Part shown: one piece after another, positions 11,865 through 64,000 of the stretch
Position numbering within the stretch: position 1 is the stretch's first letter
How the letters are laid out: every line of letters begins with the position of its first letter
Assembly: GCA_947455195.1 (NCBI GenBank)
Contig: CANGMI010000006.1
Coordinates: 186,001 to 250,000 of the forward strand
Length of the DNA stretch: 64,000 bases
Source of the DNA: Pseudomonadota bacterium
GTDB lineage: Bacteria; Pseudomonadota; Gammaproteobacteria; Burkholderiales; SG8-39
Direction of reading: 5' to 3'
Position numbers and translations under genes: made by a program
Notes under the pieces: model-generated
What the model was told of the DNA's origin: nothing
The model's input: only the letters and a program-made list of their open reading frames with translations
The model's database searches: none

Positions 11865-12668
11865 TCAGGCAGGCGGCTGTTGAAACCGGTGCAGGTCGCC
11901 GATGAGGCGCACCCAGCCATCGGCCAGCGAATCGAGGAGTTCGGCGCCCTTCTCGGGGGTTGCCGCACAGGGGTCACCGAGCACACCGCTCTCGGTAAGG
12001 TCGTGGGTGAGCCAGGCAAAGGGCCTTGCACCCTCCATCGACAGGAGACCCTCGGCGGGCAGATTGCGCGGCCACTCGGCCTTCGCACGATCCATGCGTA
12101 CGGTCTGCGGAGCCAGCGCAAGCATGAGCGCCGTCTCGGCGGCGCCCGCATGAATGCCGTACTGCATCTCGCGCGCATCGAAAAGGCTGGCTGCGCAGTG
12201 AGGAACCGACCAGACGAAGAGCGGAAACACCGTGAGGTCGCGATGCCGCACCCGCGCATCACGCGCCGCGATCTCGACCACCTGCGGCTGGCCGCCATGC
12301 CCGTTGACCAGCGCCACCTTGCGAAAGCCGCTGCGGTGAAGCGAGTCGAGCACCTCGGCCAGAGTCGCAAGGAGGGTCTGGGCGCTCAGTGCCACGGTAC
12401 CGGGAAAATCGATGTGCTCGTTGGACTTGCCGTAACAGAGAGGCGCCGCGCACTGGCAGGGGATGTCATCGGGCAGACGCGCCAGGGCATGCCCGATCAC
12501 ACCCATCAGAATCACCGTGTCGACCGCTGCCGGCAGATGTGGCCCATGCTGCTCGATCGCACCCACGGGGACGATGACAAGCGTGCCTGCACGATCGGGC
12601 ATGGCCACAAGATCGGCGCTCGAGCGCCAGGGCAGGAAGCGGTCAGGCGGAATCCAGGTGTTGAGCAT
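11865..12668 (-). CDS. Creatininase-family amidohydrolase
   Basis: 267 residues. Creatininase-fold metal site: Glu39 and His41 in VGAIEQHGPHLP, Asp50 in AAVDTVI, and His124 in VNGHGG; a further conserved Glu lies near residue 176 (GAAETALM). The family hydrolyses cyclic or linear amide C-N bonds (creatinine, formamidopyrimidine intermediates, mycofactocin peptide) using two divalent metals. Here it lies between a cupin (20-base gap upstream) and a Rieske oxygenase (41-base gap downstream) in the same operon as an AtzE-like amidase, so ring opening of a cyclic amide is a reasonable inference. The exact substrate is not visible in sequence. Confidence 0.88.
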   Translation of the reverse strand: MLNTWIPPDRFLPWRSSADLVAMPDRAGTLVIVPVGAIEQHGPHLPAAVDTVILMGVIGHALARLPDDIPCQCAAPLCYGKSNEHIDFPGTVALSAQTLLATLAEVLDSLHRSGFRKVALVNGHGGQPQVVEIAARDARVRHRDLTVFPLFVWSVPHCAASLFDAREMQYGIHAGAAETALMLALAPQTVRMDRAKAEWPRNLPAEGLLSMEGARPFAWLTHDLTESGVLGDPCAATPEKGAELLDSLADGWVRLIGDLHRFQQPPA

Positions 12669-12688
12669 GGCGTCAGTGTCTCATCCGA

Positions 12689-13126
12689 TCAGATTCGCGC
12701 GAGCACGCGCCGGTCTTCATCATCGAGTCGTTCGGGTTGGCCACCACGGACAAGGGCCGCGAAATCCTCATCGGGCACCATCGTGGTGAGACAGTAGAGA
12801 CGGGTCGAGCCGGTATTGATGACCACGTGCTCGGCCCCGGCACGCACCAGAAAGCTGTCGCCGGCAGCCACCGCAAACTCGCGCCCGTCACACCTCGCGA
12901 GGCCTTGGCCATGCAGTACCAGAAAGAGTTCATCGGCTGCGCGATGCGTGTTGGGGGGTGTCGCGCCCCCGACATCGAAGATCTCGATCACGGTGATGAA
13001 ACTCACGCCATCACTGACCGGGTCGCTCACGATGGCAAATCGATTGCTGTCCGTGGGTGCGATCCGGTACACCGGGTACTCGGCCAGCCGGCGCGCCACC
13101 GCAACATCGGGCCGGGCGGCATTCAC
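12689..13126 (-). CDS. Small cupin-domain protein
   Basis: 145 residues from the GTG at 13126, which overlaps the stop of the isochorismatase gene as GTGA. A longer open frame reaches 13177 but lies within that gene. It has a single cupin barrel: the first metal motif is around NTHRAADELFLVLHG, followed by GREFAVAAGDSFLVRAG and AEHVVINTG. The residues His, Glu and a later His suit a metal-binding cupin, but the family covers isomerases, dioxygenases and non-enzymatic sensors. Cytosolic, no signal peptide. Tight coupling argues for a step in, or sensing of, the pathway encoded by the operon. Confidence 0.75.
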   Translation of the reverse strand: MNAARPDVAVARRLAEYPVYRIAPTDSNRFAIVSDPVSDGVSFITVIEIFDVGGATPPNTHRAADELFLVLHGQGLARCDGREFAVAAGDSFLVRAGAEHVVINTGSTRLYCLTTMVPDEDFAALVRGGQPERLDDEDRRVLARI

Positions 13127-59896: not shown

Positions 59897-61450
59897 TCAG
59901 CGCTGGTCGGCGCCTGCCGTGCCTTCACCCAGCAATCGTTCCCGCAGACGAAACCGCTGCACCTTGCCCGTGGGCGTACGCGGCAGTTCGTCCACCACAC
60001 GGATCCAGCGCGGCAGGCTGTGTCGTGGCAGACGATCGCGCAGACCCGCATCGATGCGGGTCACCCGATCGACGGCATGCAGATCGAGGCTTGGGGCCGG
60101 CACGATGAAGAGGGCCAGTCGGTCAAAGCCGTCCTCATCGGGTACCACCACGCACGCCGCTTCGGTGGCGAGTCCGCCCGCGAGGGCAGCCTCCTCGACT
60201 TCGCCCGGCTTCACCCATTGACCGGCCACCTTCAGCAGTTCATCGGCTCGCCCCTGATGCCAGAAATGCCCCTCGGCATCGGTCGTGAAGAGATCATTGG
60301 TACAGAACCATCCGCGCTCGAAGGCACGGACGTTGAATTCCTCGCGGTGATAGCGCAAGGCGATGGTCGGGTGATGCAGCCAGAGTACCCCGGGCTCGCC
60401 GGGCGCCGCGGGAGCACCGCCCACCGCACGCAGCGAGGCTCGAACACCCGGCAGCAGTTCGCCACAACTGCCCAGGCGCTCGCGACCCGGATAGTTGGCG
60501 ATGGCATTGCAGTAGGTTTCCGACATGCCGTAACAGCCCGCCAGCGGATGGCCGCTCACGGCCAGCCATTCGTTGGCAACGGCGTCCGGTACGCGCTCGC
60601 CCCCGGTATAGAAGAATTCGACGCTGTGAAAGGGCTCGAGTCGCTCGCGGGGCATCGCGAGCAACCGCCGGAAGAAACTCGGCACGCTCATGAAGAGCCG
60701 CGGACGGTGACGCACAACCTGCTCCAGGGCCCGCTCAGGCTCGGCCCACGCGGCATTGAGAACGGTCGTGGCACCCAGACGGAGCGGACCCAGCAGCGCA
60801 TTGTCCAGGGCGAAGGCAAAGAAGAGCTTGGACGTCGACAGCACGGTGTCACCGACAGCGATGCCGACCACCTCGCGCAGCAGGTGCCCAGACCCGGCGC
60901 AACTCGCATGCGAGTGAACGATGCCCTTGGGCGGCCCGGTTGTCCCCGACGAATAGAGCCAGAAAGCCGGGTCTGACGCCGCGCACGGCAGACTCGCCGT
61001 CATCTCGGGCACACGCACGCAGGCCGCTTCGAAGTCATTCGCGACGATCAAGCGCGCACCGGCCAAGCCCGGTGCCTCGCCCACCCGGTCGATCAGTGCG
61101 TCTTCAACCAGCCACAGCGTCGCGGCACTGTCGGTGGCGATGAAGGCGTAATGCTCGGCCGACAGGCGCGTGTTGATCGCCATCGGTACCGCACCCAGCT
61201 TGATCGCACCCAGAAAGGCGGCGCACCAGTGAGCGCCATCATCCATGAGAATCGCGACGCGCTCGCCGGGGCGAACCCCGGCGGCGGCGATCACGGCCGC
61301 CGCCTGTCCGACAAGACGCCGCAGTGCCCCATGGGTAAAGACGCGAGGCGCTGCGACGAGGCCGGCATCGGATGCATACGCGATCAGCGCAGGCTCGTCG
61401 GGCCGGGCAAGCCCGGCCCGCAGGATTTCATCGCAGGCATTCATCATCAC
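59897..61450 (-). CDS. Benzoate-CoA-ligase-family acyl-CoA synthetase (AMP-forming)
   Basis: 517 residues, three tandem Met codons at the start (61450, 61447, 61444). ANL superfamily: P-loop WLYSSGTTGPPKGIVHSH near residue 165, SKLFFAFALDNALLGPL (typical of benzoate/hydroxybenzoate-CoA ligases), CYGMSETYCNAIANYPG, GWFCTNDLFTTDAEG and the C-terminal catalytic Lys in RTPTGKVQRFRLR. It activates an aromatic acid to its CoA thioester using ATP. Last gene of a leftward set with a PaaA-like di-iron protein (77-base gap) and an NDP-forming synthetase, indicating CoA-linked aromatic degradation. Confidence 0.92.
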   Translation of the reverse strand: MMMNACDEILRAGLARPDEPALIAYASDAGLVAAPRVFTHGALRRLVGQAAAVIAAAGVRPGERVAILMDDGAHWCAAFLGAIKLGAVPMAINTRLSAEHYAFIATDSAATLWLVEDALIDRVGEAPGLAGARLIVANDFEAACVRVPEMTASLPCAASDPAFWLYSSGTTGPPKGIVHSHASCAGSGHLLREVVGIAVGDTVLSTSKLFFAFALDNALLGPLRLGATTVLNAAWAEPERALEQVVRHRPRLFMSVPSFFRRLLAMPRERLEPFHSVEFFYTGGERVPDAVANEWLAVSGHPLAGCYGMSETYCNAIANYPGRERLGSCGELLPGVRASLRAVGGAPAAPGEPGVLWLHHPTIALRYHREEFNVRAFERGWFCTNDLFTTDAEGHFWHQGRADELLKVAGQWVKPGEVEEAALAGGLATEAACVVVPDEDGFDRLALFIVPAPSLDLHAVDRVTRIDAGLRDRLPRHSLPRWIRVVDELPRTPTGKVQRFRLRERLLGEGTAGADQR

Positions 61451-61527
61451 GGCACCATCATCGCGCGAACAGCGAGGATCAGACCACGCCGGCCGCCCTC
61501 AGGCAACTGGCCTGCGACGGGTTCGCG

Positions 61528-62247
61528 TCAGTGCAGCAGCTCGGGCGGCAGTTCGGGCAAGGTCAGCCCGAGATCGGCCGCAGCCGCCTGCGCGCGTGCA
61601 ACGTAATCGGCACGCATTTCCTCGTTGGTACGCAGCTTGATGCCCAGCTCGCGAAAGAGCGCATTGTTCTTCGAGCGCGATGCGCCGAAGAAGGCCGGCA
61701 CCACCGGGAACACGCGATTCACGGCAGCCTGGAAACGCGCCTTGCTCTCCGGATCCTTCAACAGTTCGCGACCAAACTGCATGCCGAAGTCGTGATGGAA
61801 CTTTTCCTCGGGCATGGTGCTGCGCGCGAGGTTGCGCAAGGGCAGGAAACTGCAATGCAGCAGATCTTCGACCTGCAGGATCTCGGCCAGGTCACCAAAG
61901 GCCTTGATCGCCACGAACTCTTCCCAGGTGGTGAGCGGGAAGTCGAACATGTTCAGCGGCTTCTTCGAGGTCTTCTCGGGCAGCATGCGGTCTTCGTCGA
62001 TGCCGATCTGGCGACCAAGGTCGAAGAACTTGCAGTGGTGGCCATACTCTTCCATCGCCACGCGGCAGGTCAGCCACTTGGCATAGGGGTGGGGCGCGAG
62101 GGCCACGGCGGGCTCGTCGAACACCCGGGCACCCTGCAGTTCGTTGATCGCGTGGCTCACGACGAGCTTCTCGATCGAGGTGCGGTACTCGGGGCTTTGC
62201 TGGGCAAAGTCCTGCGTGGTCTTCACTTGCGGGTGGGCGTCAGCCAT
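61528..62247 (-). CDS. PaaA-like ferritin-fold di-iron protein (phenylacetate-catabolic family)
   Basis: 239 residues, AGGAG before ATG. Four-helix di-iron site: Glu36 (SHAINELQGAR), Glu67-x2-His70 (AMEEYGHH), Glu127 (LQVEDLLH) and Glu148-x2-His151 (PEEKFHHD). This set matches PaaA of phenylacetyl-CoA epoxidase, where it binds two irons and epoxidises the aromatic ring of the CoA ester; it is shorter than PaaA (about 310 residues). PaaB, C, D, E partners are not in the window. Placed between two CoA-ligase genes, it probably oxygenates an acyl- or aroyl-CoA. Confidence 0.85.
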   Translation of the reverse strand: MADAHPQVKTTQDFAQQSPEYRTSIEKLVVSHAINELQGARVFDEPAVALAPHPYAKWLTCRVAMEEYGHHCKFFDLGRQIGIDEDRMLPEKTSKKPLNMFDFPLTTWEEFVAIKAFGDLAEILQVEDLLHCSFLPLRNLARSTMPEEKFHHDFGMQFGRELLKDPESKARFQAAVNRVFPVVPAFFGASRSKNNALFRELGIKLRTNEEMRADYVARAQAAAADLGLTLPELPPELLH

Positions 62248-62340
62248 GGTGGTTCTCCTGTGAATGCGTCGTGCGTGTGTGTATCGAATGGGTATCGCAG
62301 GGGTGAATCGTGTGTGCCTTTGCGGTGCCGTTGCGACCGG

Positions 62341-63744
62341 TCAGCGTCGCGAGTCGCCGCTCGCGCCGAGCATGTCGCGGTAGCGCGCGCAATAGCCCGC
62401 GGCAACGGCCATTTCCTCGCCATCGTCAAAGGCCGGAATGCCGGCACCTTCGAGCGTGCCGAACCAGCCGCTGCGGTCCTCGAGCGTGCCCATCATCGCG
62501 TGCATCATCGGCACCTTCGCAGCGGCTGCGATGCGTGCCAGCGTCGCCACGACCGGCGCGGCGTCGACCATGAAGGGCACCACGTGCAGACCAAGCACCA
62601 GATCGAAGGCAGGACGCGCGATTGCCAGTGACCGCTCGAAGACCATGCCGAATCGATCCTCGCGGGCATCGGCGAGGAGGTCGAGCGGGTTGGCCACTGC
62701 GGCTTCGGGCGGCAATGCCGCGCGCAGCTCATCGGTGAGCATCGTGGGCAACTCGGCCATCAGCAGACCCTCACGCGCGGCCGCATCCGTGGTGAGCACA
62801 CCGGGCCCGCCCGAGTTGGACAGCATCAGGACACGCCGGCCCAGCCCGCGCGGAAAGGCGCCCAGGCCCTTGGCCGCCACCAGCAGGCGACGCAGGTTCT
62901 CGACCTTGAGAACACCCGCTTCGGCGAGCATGGCATCGAGCTCGTCGTCAGGCATCGCGGCCGACCCGGTGTGCCGCGCCACGGCGCCTGTGCCCGGGGG
63001 CGTGCGCCCGCCCACCAGCGCAATGATGGGCTTGTCGCGCGAGATGGCACGTGCGCTCTCGAGAAAGCGCTTCGGATCGCCGAAGGACTCGACGTAGAGC
63101 GCGATGACCCGGCACAGCGGATCGGCGCCGTAGTGCTCCATGTACTCGGTGATGCCGAGTTGCACCGCGTTGCCCACCGAAATGATCGAGCCGAAGGGCA
63201 GATTCATCTCGTGACTCTTGGCGATCACCTGCTCGGCGATGGCGCCCGATTGCGAGATGAAGGCCACCGGGCCGCCACGCGGCATGGCGCGCAGGAAGGC
63301 GGCTGCAAAGGGCCGGGCCGGATCGAGCTGGTCGATCACCCCGGCACAGTTGGGTCCCGCGACCGTGAGGCCATGCTCGGCAATGAGCGCGCGCAGCTCG
63401 CGATCGCGCGCGAGCCCCACCTCACCGGCTTCGGCGAAACCACCGGGCAGGATGAGGAGGTTGCGATGCCCGGTTGCAGCCGCTTCCCGAACCGCATCGA
63501 CGATGGCATCGGGCCGAATGACGATGACCGCCAGATCGGCGGGCGGCGATACCTCGGCCAGACTCGTGGCCACTGGCAGATCGAAGAGGGTGCCGCCACG
63601 CGGATTCACCGGAATGACGCGCCCGCCGTAGCCCGCGAGATTCAGATTGCGGAGCACGGCGCCGCCGGAACTTGTCAGGCGTTCGGCAGCCCCCACCACA
63701 GCAACGCTGGCGGGACGAAGAAGGGCACTCAGATCGGTGGTCAT
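62341..63744 (-). CDS. NDP-forming acyl-CoA synthetase, alpha-type subunit
   Basis: 467 residues from ATG 63744; the frame is open to 63918 without family similarity. CoA-binding Rossmann domain SVAVVGAAERLTSSGGAVLRN, RVIPVNPRGG, then ligase-CoA domains with FISQSGAIAEQ, SVGNAVQLGITEYMEHY and the phosphorylatable His in ARHTGSAAMPDDE. This is the acetate-CoA ligase (ADP-forming)/Pat-like alpha arrangement, without the ATP-grasp beta domain, so a partner subunit is needed. It lies 93 bases upstream of the PaaA-like gene. It could make or recycle the CoA ester used by the operon. Confidence 0.9.
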   Translation of the reverse strand: MTTDLSALLRPASVAVVGAAERLTSSGGAVLRNLNLAGYGGRVIPVNPRGGTLFDLPVATSLAEVSPPADLAVIVIRPDAIVDAVREAAATGHRNLLILPGGFAEAGEVGLARDRELRALIAEHGLTVAGPNCAGVIDQLDPARPFAAAFLRAMPRGGPVAFISQSGAIAEQVIAKSHEMNLPFGSIISVGNAVQLGITEYMEHYGADPLCRVIALYVESFGDPKRFLESARAISRDKPIIALVGGRTPPGTGAVARHTGSAAMPDDELDAMLAEAGVLKVENLRRLLVAAKGLGAFPRGLGRRVLMLSNSGGPGVLTTDAAAREGLLMAELPTMLTDELRAALPPEAAVANPLDLLADAREDRFGMVFERSLAIARPAFDLVLGLHVVPFMVDAAPVVATLARIAAAAKVPMMHAMMGTLEDRSGWFGTLEGAGIPAFDDGEEMAVAAGYCARYRDMLGASGDSRR

Positions 63745-63763
63745 GGATGGTCTGGTTTCACAG

Positions 63764-64000
63764 TCAGAAGATGGCGAGACGCCCGTCGTAGACCCCCAAC
63801 AGCCAGCGGCCCCCGGCATAGAGCGAATACTTGCGAATGAAAGGATGTGCCTCATCGCAACCGGCAAGCACGGCCAGTTCATGGTGATAGGCCGCATACG
63901 AAGCGGCACCGGCCGCAACGCGAGTCATGCCAGGATCGCTGTTTCCGCAGCGCGCGGCAGCCACCGCCGCGGCACCATGGAGAAGGTCGTTCAGCCGGAT
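63764..64000 (-). CDS. C-terminal part of an unidentified protein (cut by window edge)
   Basis: Open to the right edge with no stop; 78 residues visible, ending GGRWLLGVYDGRLAIF. The end reads EAHPFIRKYSLYAGGRWLLGVY, a mix of aromatic and basic residues that looks like a folded C-terminal domain. An internal GTG (63964) could be read as a start but there is no reason to prefer it. Family not recognised. It is 19 bases upstream of the NDP-forming synthetase on the same strand, so probably in the same operon. It does not look like the missing ATP-grasp beta subunit. Confidence 0.55.
   Translation of the reverse strand: MRLNDLLHGAAAVAAARCGNSDPGMTRVAAGAASYAAYHHELAVLAGCDEAHPFIRKYSLYAGGRWLLGVYDGRLAIF

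Follow-up and report, generated by a model that had tools for sequence, protein, structure and literature searches.

Two aerobic pathways dependent on coenzyme A (CoA) for the breakdown of aromatic compounds, box and paa, both with di-iron epoxidases, are treated in the available excerpt of a structural review (PMC4498308). Here we analysed a 64,000-nucleotide stretch of DNA from a Pseudomonadota bacterium (Burkholderiales; SG8-39), which corresponds to positions 186,001 to 250,000 of contig CANGMI010000006.1 (assembly GCA_947455195.1) and is called the window below. At its right end lies a leftward operon encoding a short di-iron protein that resembles PaaA. The gene content of this operon and of its relatives suggested that it probably serves to degrade an aromatic acid aerobically in the form of its CoA thioester, with di-iron oxygenation of the ring and an exit through gentisate. 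The module appears to represent a new variant among the di-iron oxygenases for CoA-bound aromatics and is well supported by genomics. It was undescribed in the open PMC papers searched; subscription papers and preprints lay outside this search, so its absence from print is unproven.

Compared with PaaABC(D)E, the window module has the same PF05138 family, fold, six iron ligands and CoA-thioester setting, together with a flavin/[2Fe-2S] reductase in the operon. However, the window di-iron protein has 239 aa while PaaA has 309 aa, the difference lying mostly at the C end, and it shares 23% identity with PaaA and lacks the bridge lysine. PaaB and PaaC are absent from the module, whereas a short-chain dehydrogenase (SDR) and a small protein, CL3, are extra. 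The ferredoxin domain is N-terminal in the window reductase but C-terminal in PaaE, as given in the review excerpt (PMC4498308), and no paa-type ring-opening genes were seen among the frames scanned by the module, many relatives having a gentisate 1,2-dioxygenase (GDO) gene instead. The same excerpt presents BoxAB as a di-iron enzyme which, like the window enzyme as we read it, works on aroyl-CoA without a PaaC partner; it differs in that the BoxA reductase carries two [4Fe-4S] clusters and that the ring is opened through BoxC and BoxD, not through gentisate (PMC4498308). Sulfolobus SSO1313 (PDB 4mud) is also PaaA-like, with 235 residues and without the long C-terminal part, but shares only 21% identity. 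The benABCD system is similar in that the window reductase is closest to BenC and that reductase and SDR adjoin the oxygenase, but the window oxygenase is a di-iron, CoA-linked one. BenAB is a Rieske oxygenase acting on the free acid, and BenD dehydrogenates the dihydrodiol. CoA-linked gentisate routes with flavoprotein hydroxylases are known as well, namely those of salicyl-CoA 5-hydroxylase, of 4-hydroxybenzoyl-CoA with an NIH shift in Brevibacillus, and of benzoyl-CoA 3-monooxygenase, and their logic is CoA activation, hydroxylation, thioesterase and gentisate. The window module would follow the same logic, but in place of the flavoprotein it has a di-iron enzyme together with CL3, SDR and reductase. 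For 3-hydroxybenzoate, a monooxygenase leading to gentisate, which we read as acting on the free acid, is given in the available part of PMC9765128.

Three genes at the right end of the window form one leftward set on the minus strand, as the initial annotation had described. They encode a benzoate-CoA-ligase-like, AMP-forming aryl/acyl-CoA ligase (59897-61450, 517 aa, PF00501), which is the last gene of the operon, the PaaA-like di-iron oxygenase catalytic subunit (61528-62247, 239 aa, PF05138), and the alpha subunit of an NDP-forming acyl-CoA synthetase (ACD; 62341-63744, 467 aa from the ATG, TIGR02717), whose open frame runs to 63918. The window edge cuts the operon, with the CL3, SDR and reductase genes lying mostly or wholly to the right of it. 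The rightward extension that the annotation had proposed gave the rest: upstream of the ACD alpha gene come CL3 (minus strand, 63764-64264, 166 aa, of which the C-terminal part at 63764-64000 is inside the window), an MFE-2-like SDR, a BenC/MmoC-type reductase and then a divergent MarR-type gene. Ten frames were scanned over the 10 kb to the right, comprising CL3, SDR, reductase, phoR, phoB, phoU, an acyltransferase and family-less frames, with the MarR gene besides. None of the ten was a paa or box gene, so that the complete paa or box set named in the annotation as the sign of a known pathway does not follow directly to the right.

The same annotation had stated that the PaaBCDE partners are missing. 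This held for PaaB, which gave no match in the window genome (98% complete), and for PaaC, which was not found there, the window protein being the only PF05138 match over the cut-off genome-wide; it did not hold for partners in general, as a dedicated reductase, SDR and small partner protein are encoded just past the window edge. The genome also encodes BoxB (475 aa, 895.6 bits) on contig C4, away from the module, beside a frame that resembles BoxA by eye; with an intact BoxB encoded elsewhere, benzoate has its own route in this organism. Since there is no paa or box gene among the frames scanned at the right, a single PF05138 match over the cut-off, no PaaB match, and a boxB gene on another contig, the distinct CoA-dependent di-iron route that had been suggested is well supported as genomics. 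The epoxidase-type chemistry suggested with it is presumed from fold and ligands.

The di-iron protein passed the gathering cut-off of PF05138 (PaaA_PaaC superfamily; 94.2 versus 28.5 bits) but did not reach the PaaA equivalog model TIGR02156 (69.2 bits versus a cut-off of 280), and the BoxB model TIGR03225 was absent from its two NCBIfam matches at E 0.01. In the alignment, its residues E36, E67, H70, D119, E148 and H151 correspond to E42, E72, H75, D126, E155 and H158, the iron ligands of PaaA in the review excerpt (PMC4498308). For the comparison across relatives, 223 relatives were collected by scanning GTDB contigs, and the 80 best of them were taken forward. Six of these, namely L071 and five duplicates, were dropped and eight genome stretches were added, which made 82 loci. 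The six ligands were unchanged in 82/82, which bore out the earlier statement that all iron ligands are present, and D44, E45, R62, H71, E122 and E127 were also invariant in the clade. The column of Lys68, the bridge lysine of PaaA according to the same excerpt (PMC4498308), holds V in 79 loci and I in 3, so all 82 lack the bridge lysine. In a search of 299 Pseudomonadota genomes, the scores were bimodal, with 384-436 bits in three and at most 89.3 bits in the other 25 matching genomes. In a maximum-likelihood tree, drawn along the line of the phylogeny that the annotation had called for, 14 clade rows joined at 100/99, with PaaC and the 19 PaaA rows outside; because the tree program warned of long branches, the deeper placement of the clade is unsure. 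The AlphaFold2 model of the protein (pLDDT 95.5) matched PaaA chains at Z 27.7-28.5, the top one being 4ii4_A (root-mean-square deviation 2.3, 236 aligned residues, 23% identity), a PaaA double mutant with benzoyl-CoA with which wild-type PaaA (3pvr_A, Z 28.1) tied. The next matches were SSO1313 (Z 25.5), PaaC (Z 22.7) and BoxB (Z 21.6). A second short PaaA-like group was observed in the same bacterial family (L014, L022, L015, L017 and L025, around 1501-2187), its five rows joining at 94/96; L014 and L022 carry Q where PaaA has the ligand H75.

By their record titles, of which no tally was made, most of the 80 kept relatives were Alphaproteobacteria; a few carried a betaproteobacterial label and one that of Eremiobacterota. 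The SDR gene adjoined the di-iron gene on its upstream side in 80/82 loci and the reductase gene did so in 76, both being present in 74. A divergent MarR gene was found in 59 loci and a same-strand ACD alpha gene in 32. Two types of thioesterase and two of ligase were also looked for: 49 loci had at least one of the thioesterases within 6 kb, and 16 had at least one of the ligases. The gene order varied: CL3 and ACD alpha stand before the di-iron gene in the window genus, and CL3 stands after it in most others. PaaB was absent from seven of the eight carriers tested, and the eighth, G051, has PaaB together with its own PaaA-like gene elsewhere. A plasmid search returned 149 records with matches, every one below 60% identity, and a second di-iron clade query gave no plasmid match at E 1e-20. 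The Eremiobacterota record, a contig of a Candidatus Eremiobacterota metagenome-assembled genome (L067), holds a clade member with SDR and a weak ligase match, and transfer or mis-binning would account for it. In Reyranella-type loci (e.g. L041, L044 and L085), genes for an M81/MlrC-like protein and an alpha/beta hydrolase recurred at similar distances. Genes that we take to be racemase-like and deacetylase-like recurred in such loci as well.

CL3 had no Pfam or NCBIfam family match, and searches of PHROGs and PDB sequences gave nothing of weight. In the 299-genome phylum sample, it was present in 3/3 carriers of the di-iron clade and 0/296 other genomes (Fisher p 2.3e-7, kinship uncorrected), and among 61 relatives in 7/9 carriers and 0/52 others (Fisher p 8.3e-8, kinship uncorrected). 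It lay within 3 kb of the di-iron gene on the same strand in 68/82 loci. These distributions suggested that CL3 may be a subunit or an assembly partner of the di-iron enzyme. The AlphaFold2 model of a CL3 homologue (from L101; pLDDT 94.5) had no Foldseek match in the PDB at E 0.001 or better; VIA-align gave Z 11.3 with a chain of an Rhs2 toxin-immunity complex, from which no function was drawn. That CL3 might be a degenerate PaaC was considered and rejected, the profile comparison with the di-iron alignment giving a probability of about 0.1%. The CL3 copy of genome G051 (L158; G051:C3:55285-55824) has one in-frame TGA, which may reflect a broken gene or an assembly error.

The reductase has the domain order Fer2-FAD-NAD, with its cysteines kept by sequence, and its best models were BenC (211.7 bits, cut-off 430) and MmoC (182.1 bits, cut-off 500). 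The nearest solved structure of the SDR was the MFE-2 (3R)-hydroxyacyl-CoA dehydrogenase 2et6, because of which a CoA-bound hydroxyl is the likely target of this enzyme, and the catalytic S-Y-K residues were present in all 78 loci covered. The ligase scored 227.7 bits with PF00501; its best NCBIfam matches were HbdA and benzoate-CoA ligase, and the nearest solved structures were benzoate-CoA ligases. The ACD alpha subunit scored 340.2 bits with TIGR02717, below the cut-off of 567.15, and its nearest PDB entries were 2csu and then 8wzu and 4xyl. The histidine of the HTG motif is catalytic in the alpha subunit of NDP-forming acyl-CoA synthetases; this residue of the RHTGS motif (H258 of the trimmed query) was kept in 39/39 matches. 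No dedicated ACD beta subunit was found in the window genome, in a test that left succinyl-CoA synthetase beta aside. ATP-grasp_5 matches in this genome were weak, the best reaching 36.1 bits, whereas five of the other seven carriers had top matches of 132-308 bits, so the alpha subunit may be an orphan or paired with another ATP-grasp protein.

The link with gentisate came from the operons of relatives. A GDO gene stood within 2 kb downstream of the module on the same strand in 27/82 loci, and 20 of the 35 clusters formed at 90% di-iron identity held at least one such locus; one representative of these adjacent enzymes scored 478 bits with TIGR02272 (cut-off 442). In four loci (L031, L032, L046 and L069), GDO, FAA hydrolase, ACD alpha and a glutathione S-transferase hit by the maleylacetoacetate isomerase model lie in one run. 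Genome-wide, a GDO over the curated cut-off was found in 8/8 module genomes tested, which were hand-picked as six without and two with an adjacent GDO gene. The base rate was 17/299 Pseudomonadota genomes, made up of 3/3 carriers of the di-iron clade and 14/296 others (Fisher p 1.5e-4, kinship uncorrected). The window genome has its own GDO (509.8 bits, cut-off 442.1) on contig C1. Its two strongest GDO-like genes (L152, G000:C7:88000-107000; L151, G000:C1:758000-774000) both lie no more than a few kb from amidase genes, a hint that other parts of the genome deal with an amide-linked aromatic substrate.

In the pathway that we propose, the ligase would make an aroyl-CoA, and the dedicated [2Fe-2S]-FAD reductase would pass electrons from NADH to the PaaA-like subunit. 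The fold, the ligands and the co-occurrence with CL3 suggest that the di-iron subunit, assisted by CL3, adds one oxygen to the CoA-bound ring. The MFE-2-like dehydrogenase might then oxidise or rearomatise the CoA-bound intermediate, and a thioesterase or the ACD alpha subunit might release the acid. The product would enter the gentisate pathway, in which GDO, an isomerase and a hydrolase yield fumarate and pyruvate. The operon content of relatives and the genome-wide co-occurrence make gentisate the most likely exit. Hydroxybenzoates (salicylate, 3- or 4-hydroxybenzoate) are the most likely substrates. A bolder version, which we hold to be possible rather than probable, is that of a CoA-dependent aerobic route for aromatics standing third beside box and paa. 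In it, the PaaA-like subunit and CL3 would form a minimal di-iron oxygenase for aroyl-CoA, with a dedicated reductase of BenC type and an SDR specific for CoA substrates; this system would convert hydroxybenzoyl-CoA to gentisyl-CoA, and the ACD alpha subunit would recover the thioester energy that a thioesterase wastes. If true, such a pathway would be a third branch whose set of subunits differs from those of the other two and which occurs in Reyranella and other Alphaproteobacteria. It would show how compact a CoA-dependent di-iron ring oxygenase can be, and it would correct genes now named for phenylacetate catabolism after their Pfam family. CL3 would be a testable new protein family and a candidate oxygenase partner.

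Several observations weigh against the proposed pathway. The SDR step is its weak point, as the monooxygenation of hydroxybenzoyl-CoA requires no SDR. The ligase stayed under both aryl-CoA cut-offs (366.3 versus 1000 bits for HbdA, NF053567; 324.8 versus 375.25 bits for benzoate-CoA ligase, TIGR02262), and the window's operon showed no thioesterase. The GDO of the window genome lies outside the operon, on the other contig near an amidase gene, and queries for FAA hydrolase, isomerase, SDR, reductase and di-iron protein had no match in this C1 stretch. Likewise, isomerase and fumarylpyruvate hydrolase gave no match in the two GDO stretches of the genome, to which that search was confined. The gentisate statistic draws on three genomes of the even sample and the eight hand-picked ones, with kinship uncorrected. 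CL3 is not universal, as it was undetected in 14/82 loci, at least one of which (L103) ends soon after the di-iron gene. In Reyranella-type loci, whose neighbours include the alpha/beta hydrolase and the M81-type protein, no match to a ligase turned up, and different groups could therefore act on different substrates.

The role of the SDR is where an alternative has its strength. In a dihydrodiol route, the di-iron enzyme and CL3 would form an arene epoxide or dihydrodiol of the aroyl-CoA, which the SDR would dehydrogenate to dihydroxybenzoyl-CoA like BenD in benABCD, the reductase, SDR and oxygenase thus standing for BenC, BenD and BenAB but with a di-iron enzyme in the place of the Rieske oxygenase. 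This would explain why an SDR is needed and why one resembling oxidisers of CoA-bound hydroxyls is adjacent in 80/82 loci, and it fits a reductase closest to BenC and MmoC with the Fer2-FAD-NAD order. However, an ordinary 2,3- or 1,2-dihydrodiol does not yield gentisate, which is 2,5-dihydroxylated, and the likeness to BenD is drawn from the role of BenD. In the review excerpt, moreover, PaaA and BoxB form epoxides that are then isomerised or opened, not dihydrodiols (PMC4498308). We regard this route as unlikely.

The substrate might also not be aromatic, the di-iron enzyme hydroxylating an aliphatic or alicyclic acyl-CoA and the MFE-2-like SDR oxidising the alcohol, with the GDO neighbour there by chance or for a later step. 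An SDR nearest to a (3R)-hydroxyacyl-CoA dehydrogenase would suit such chemistry, the ligase beside L036, the representative of the second ligase type, matched broad acyl-CoA ligase models best, and the Reyranella-type loci had no aromatic-specific neighbour among the queries. The adjacency of GDO in 27/82 loci and its presence in 8/8 genomes versus 17/299 argue for an aromatic substrate instead, as do the window ligase, nearest to aryl-CoA ligases, and a fold nearest to PaaA, SSO1313, PaaC and BoxB, among which PaaA and BoxB act on arylacetyl- or aroyl-CoA in the review excerpt (PMC4498308); we consider a non-aromatic substrate quite improbable. Least credible of all, and already contradicted, is a remnant of an ordinary, if divergent, PaaA (phenylacetyl-CoA epoxidase) or BoxB (benzoyl-CoA epoxidase). 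The PF05138 match, the six ligands and the PaaA fold would be expected of it, but the TIGR02156 score is far below its cut-off, the protein belongs to its own clade at 100/99 with scores of at least 384 bits in-clade versus at most 89.3, the bridge lysine is V or I in 82/82 loci, PaaB is lacking in 7/8 carriers, and BoxB is intact elsewhere in the genome.

In 33 of 52 loci, exact copies of the arms TTGTTTG and CAAACAA stand between the reductase gene and the divergent MarR gene; when up to two mismatches are allowed, 47 of the 52 have them. The spacer of TTGTTTG-N5-CAAACAA varies in sequence. At the same tolerance, random windows of those loci, which can include the true site, gave 28/1040. 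The window-genome operator reads TTGTTTGGTATTCAAACTA. This site is very likely where the divergent MarR-type protein acts to repress the operon, the site being observed and its binding predicted. A sigma-70 promoter scan gave nothing at threshold; by eye, TTGACA, 17 bases and TACTTT lie on the reductase strand just past the operator, which is suggestive only.

The MarR-type gene itself, in the right-hand stretch L002 at about 12393-12899 with an uncertain start, matched a Saro_0803-family model at 90.7 bits (cut-off 200). Beyond it and on its strand lie phoR, phoB and phoU (L002:12954-16090), so that the module adjoins regulators of the phosphate regulon.

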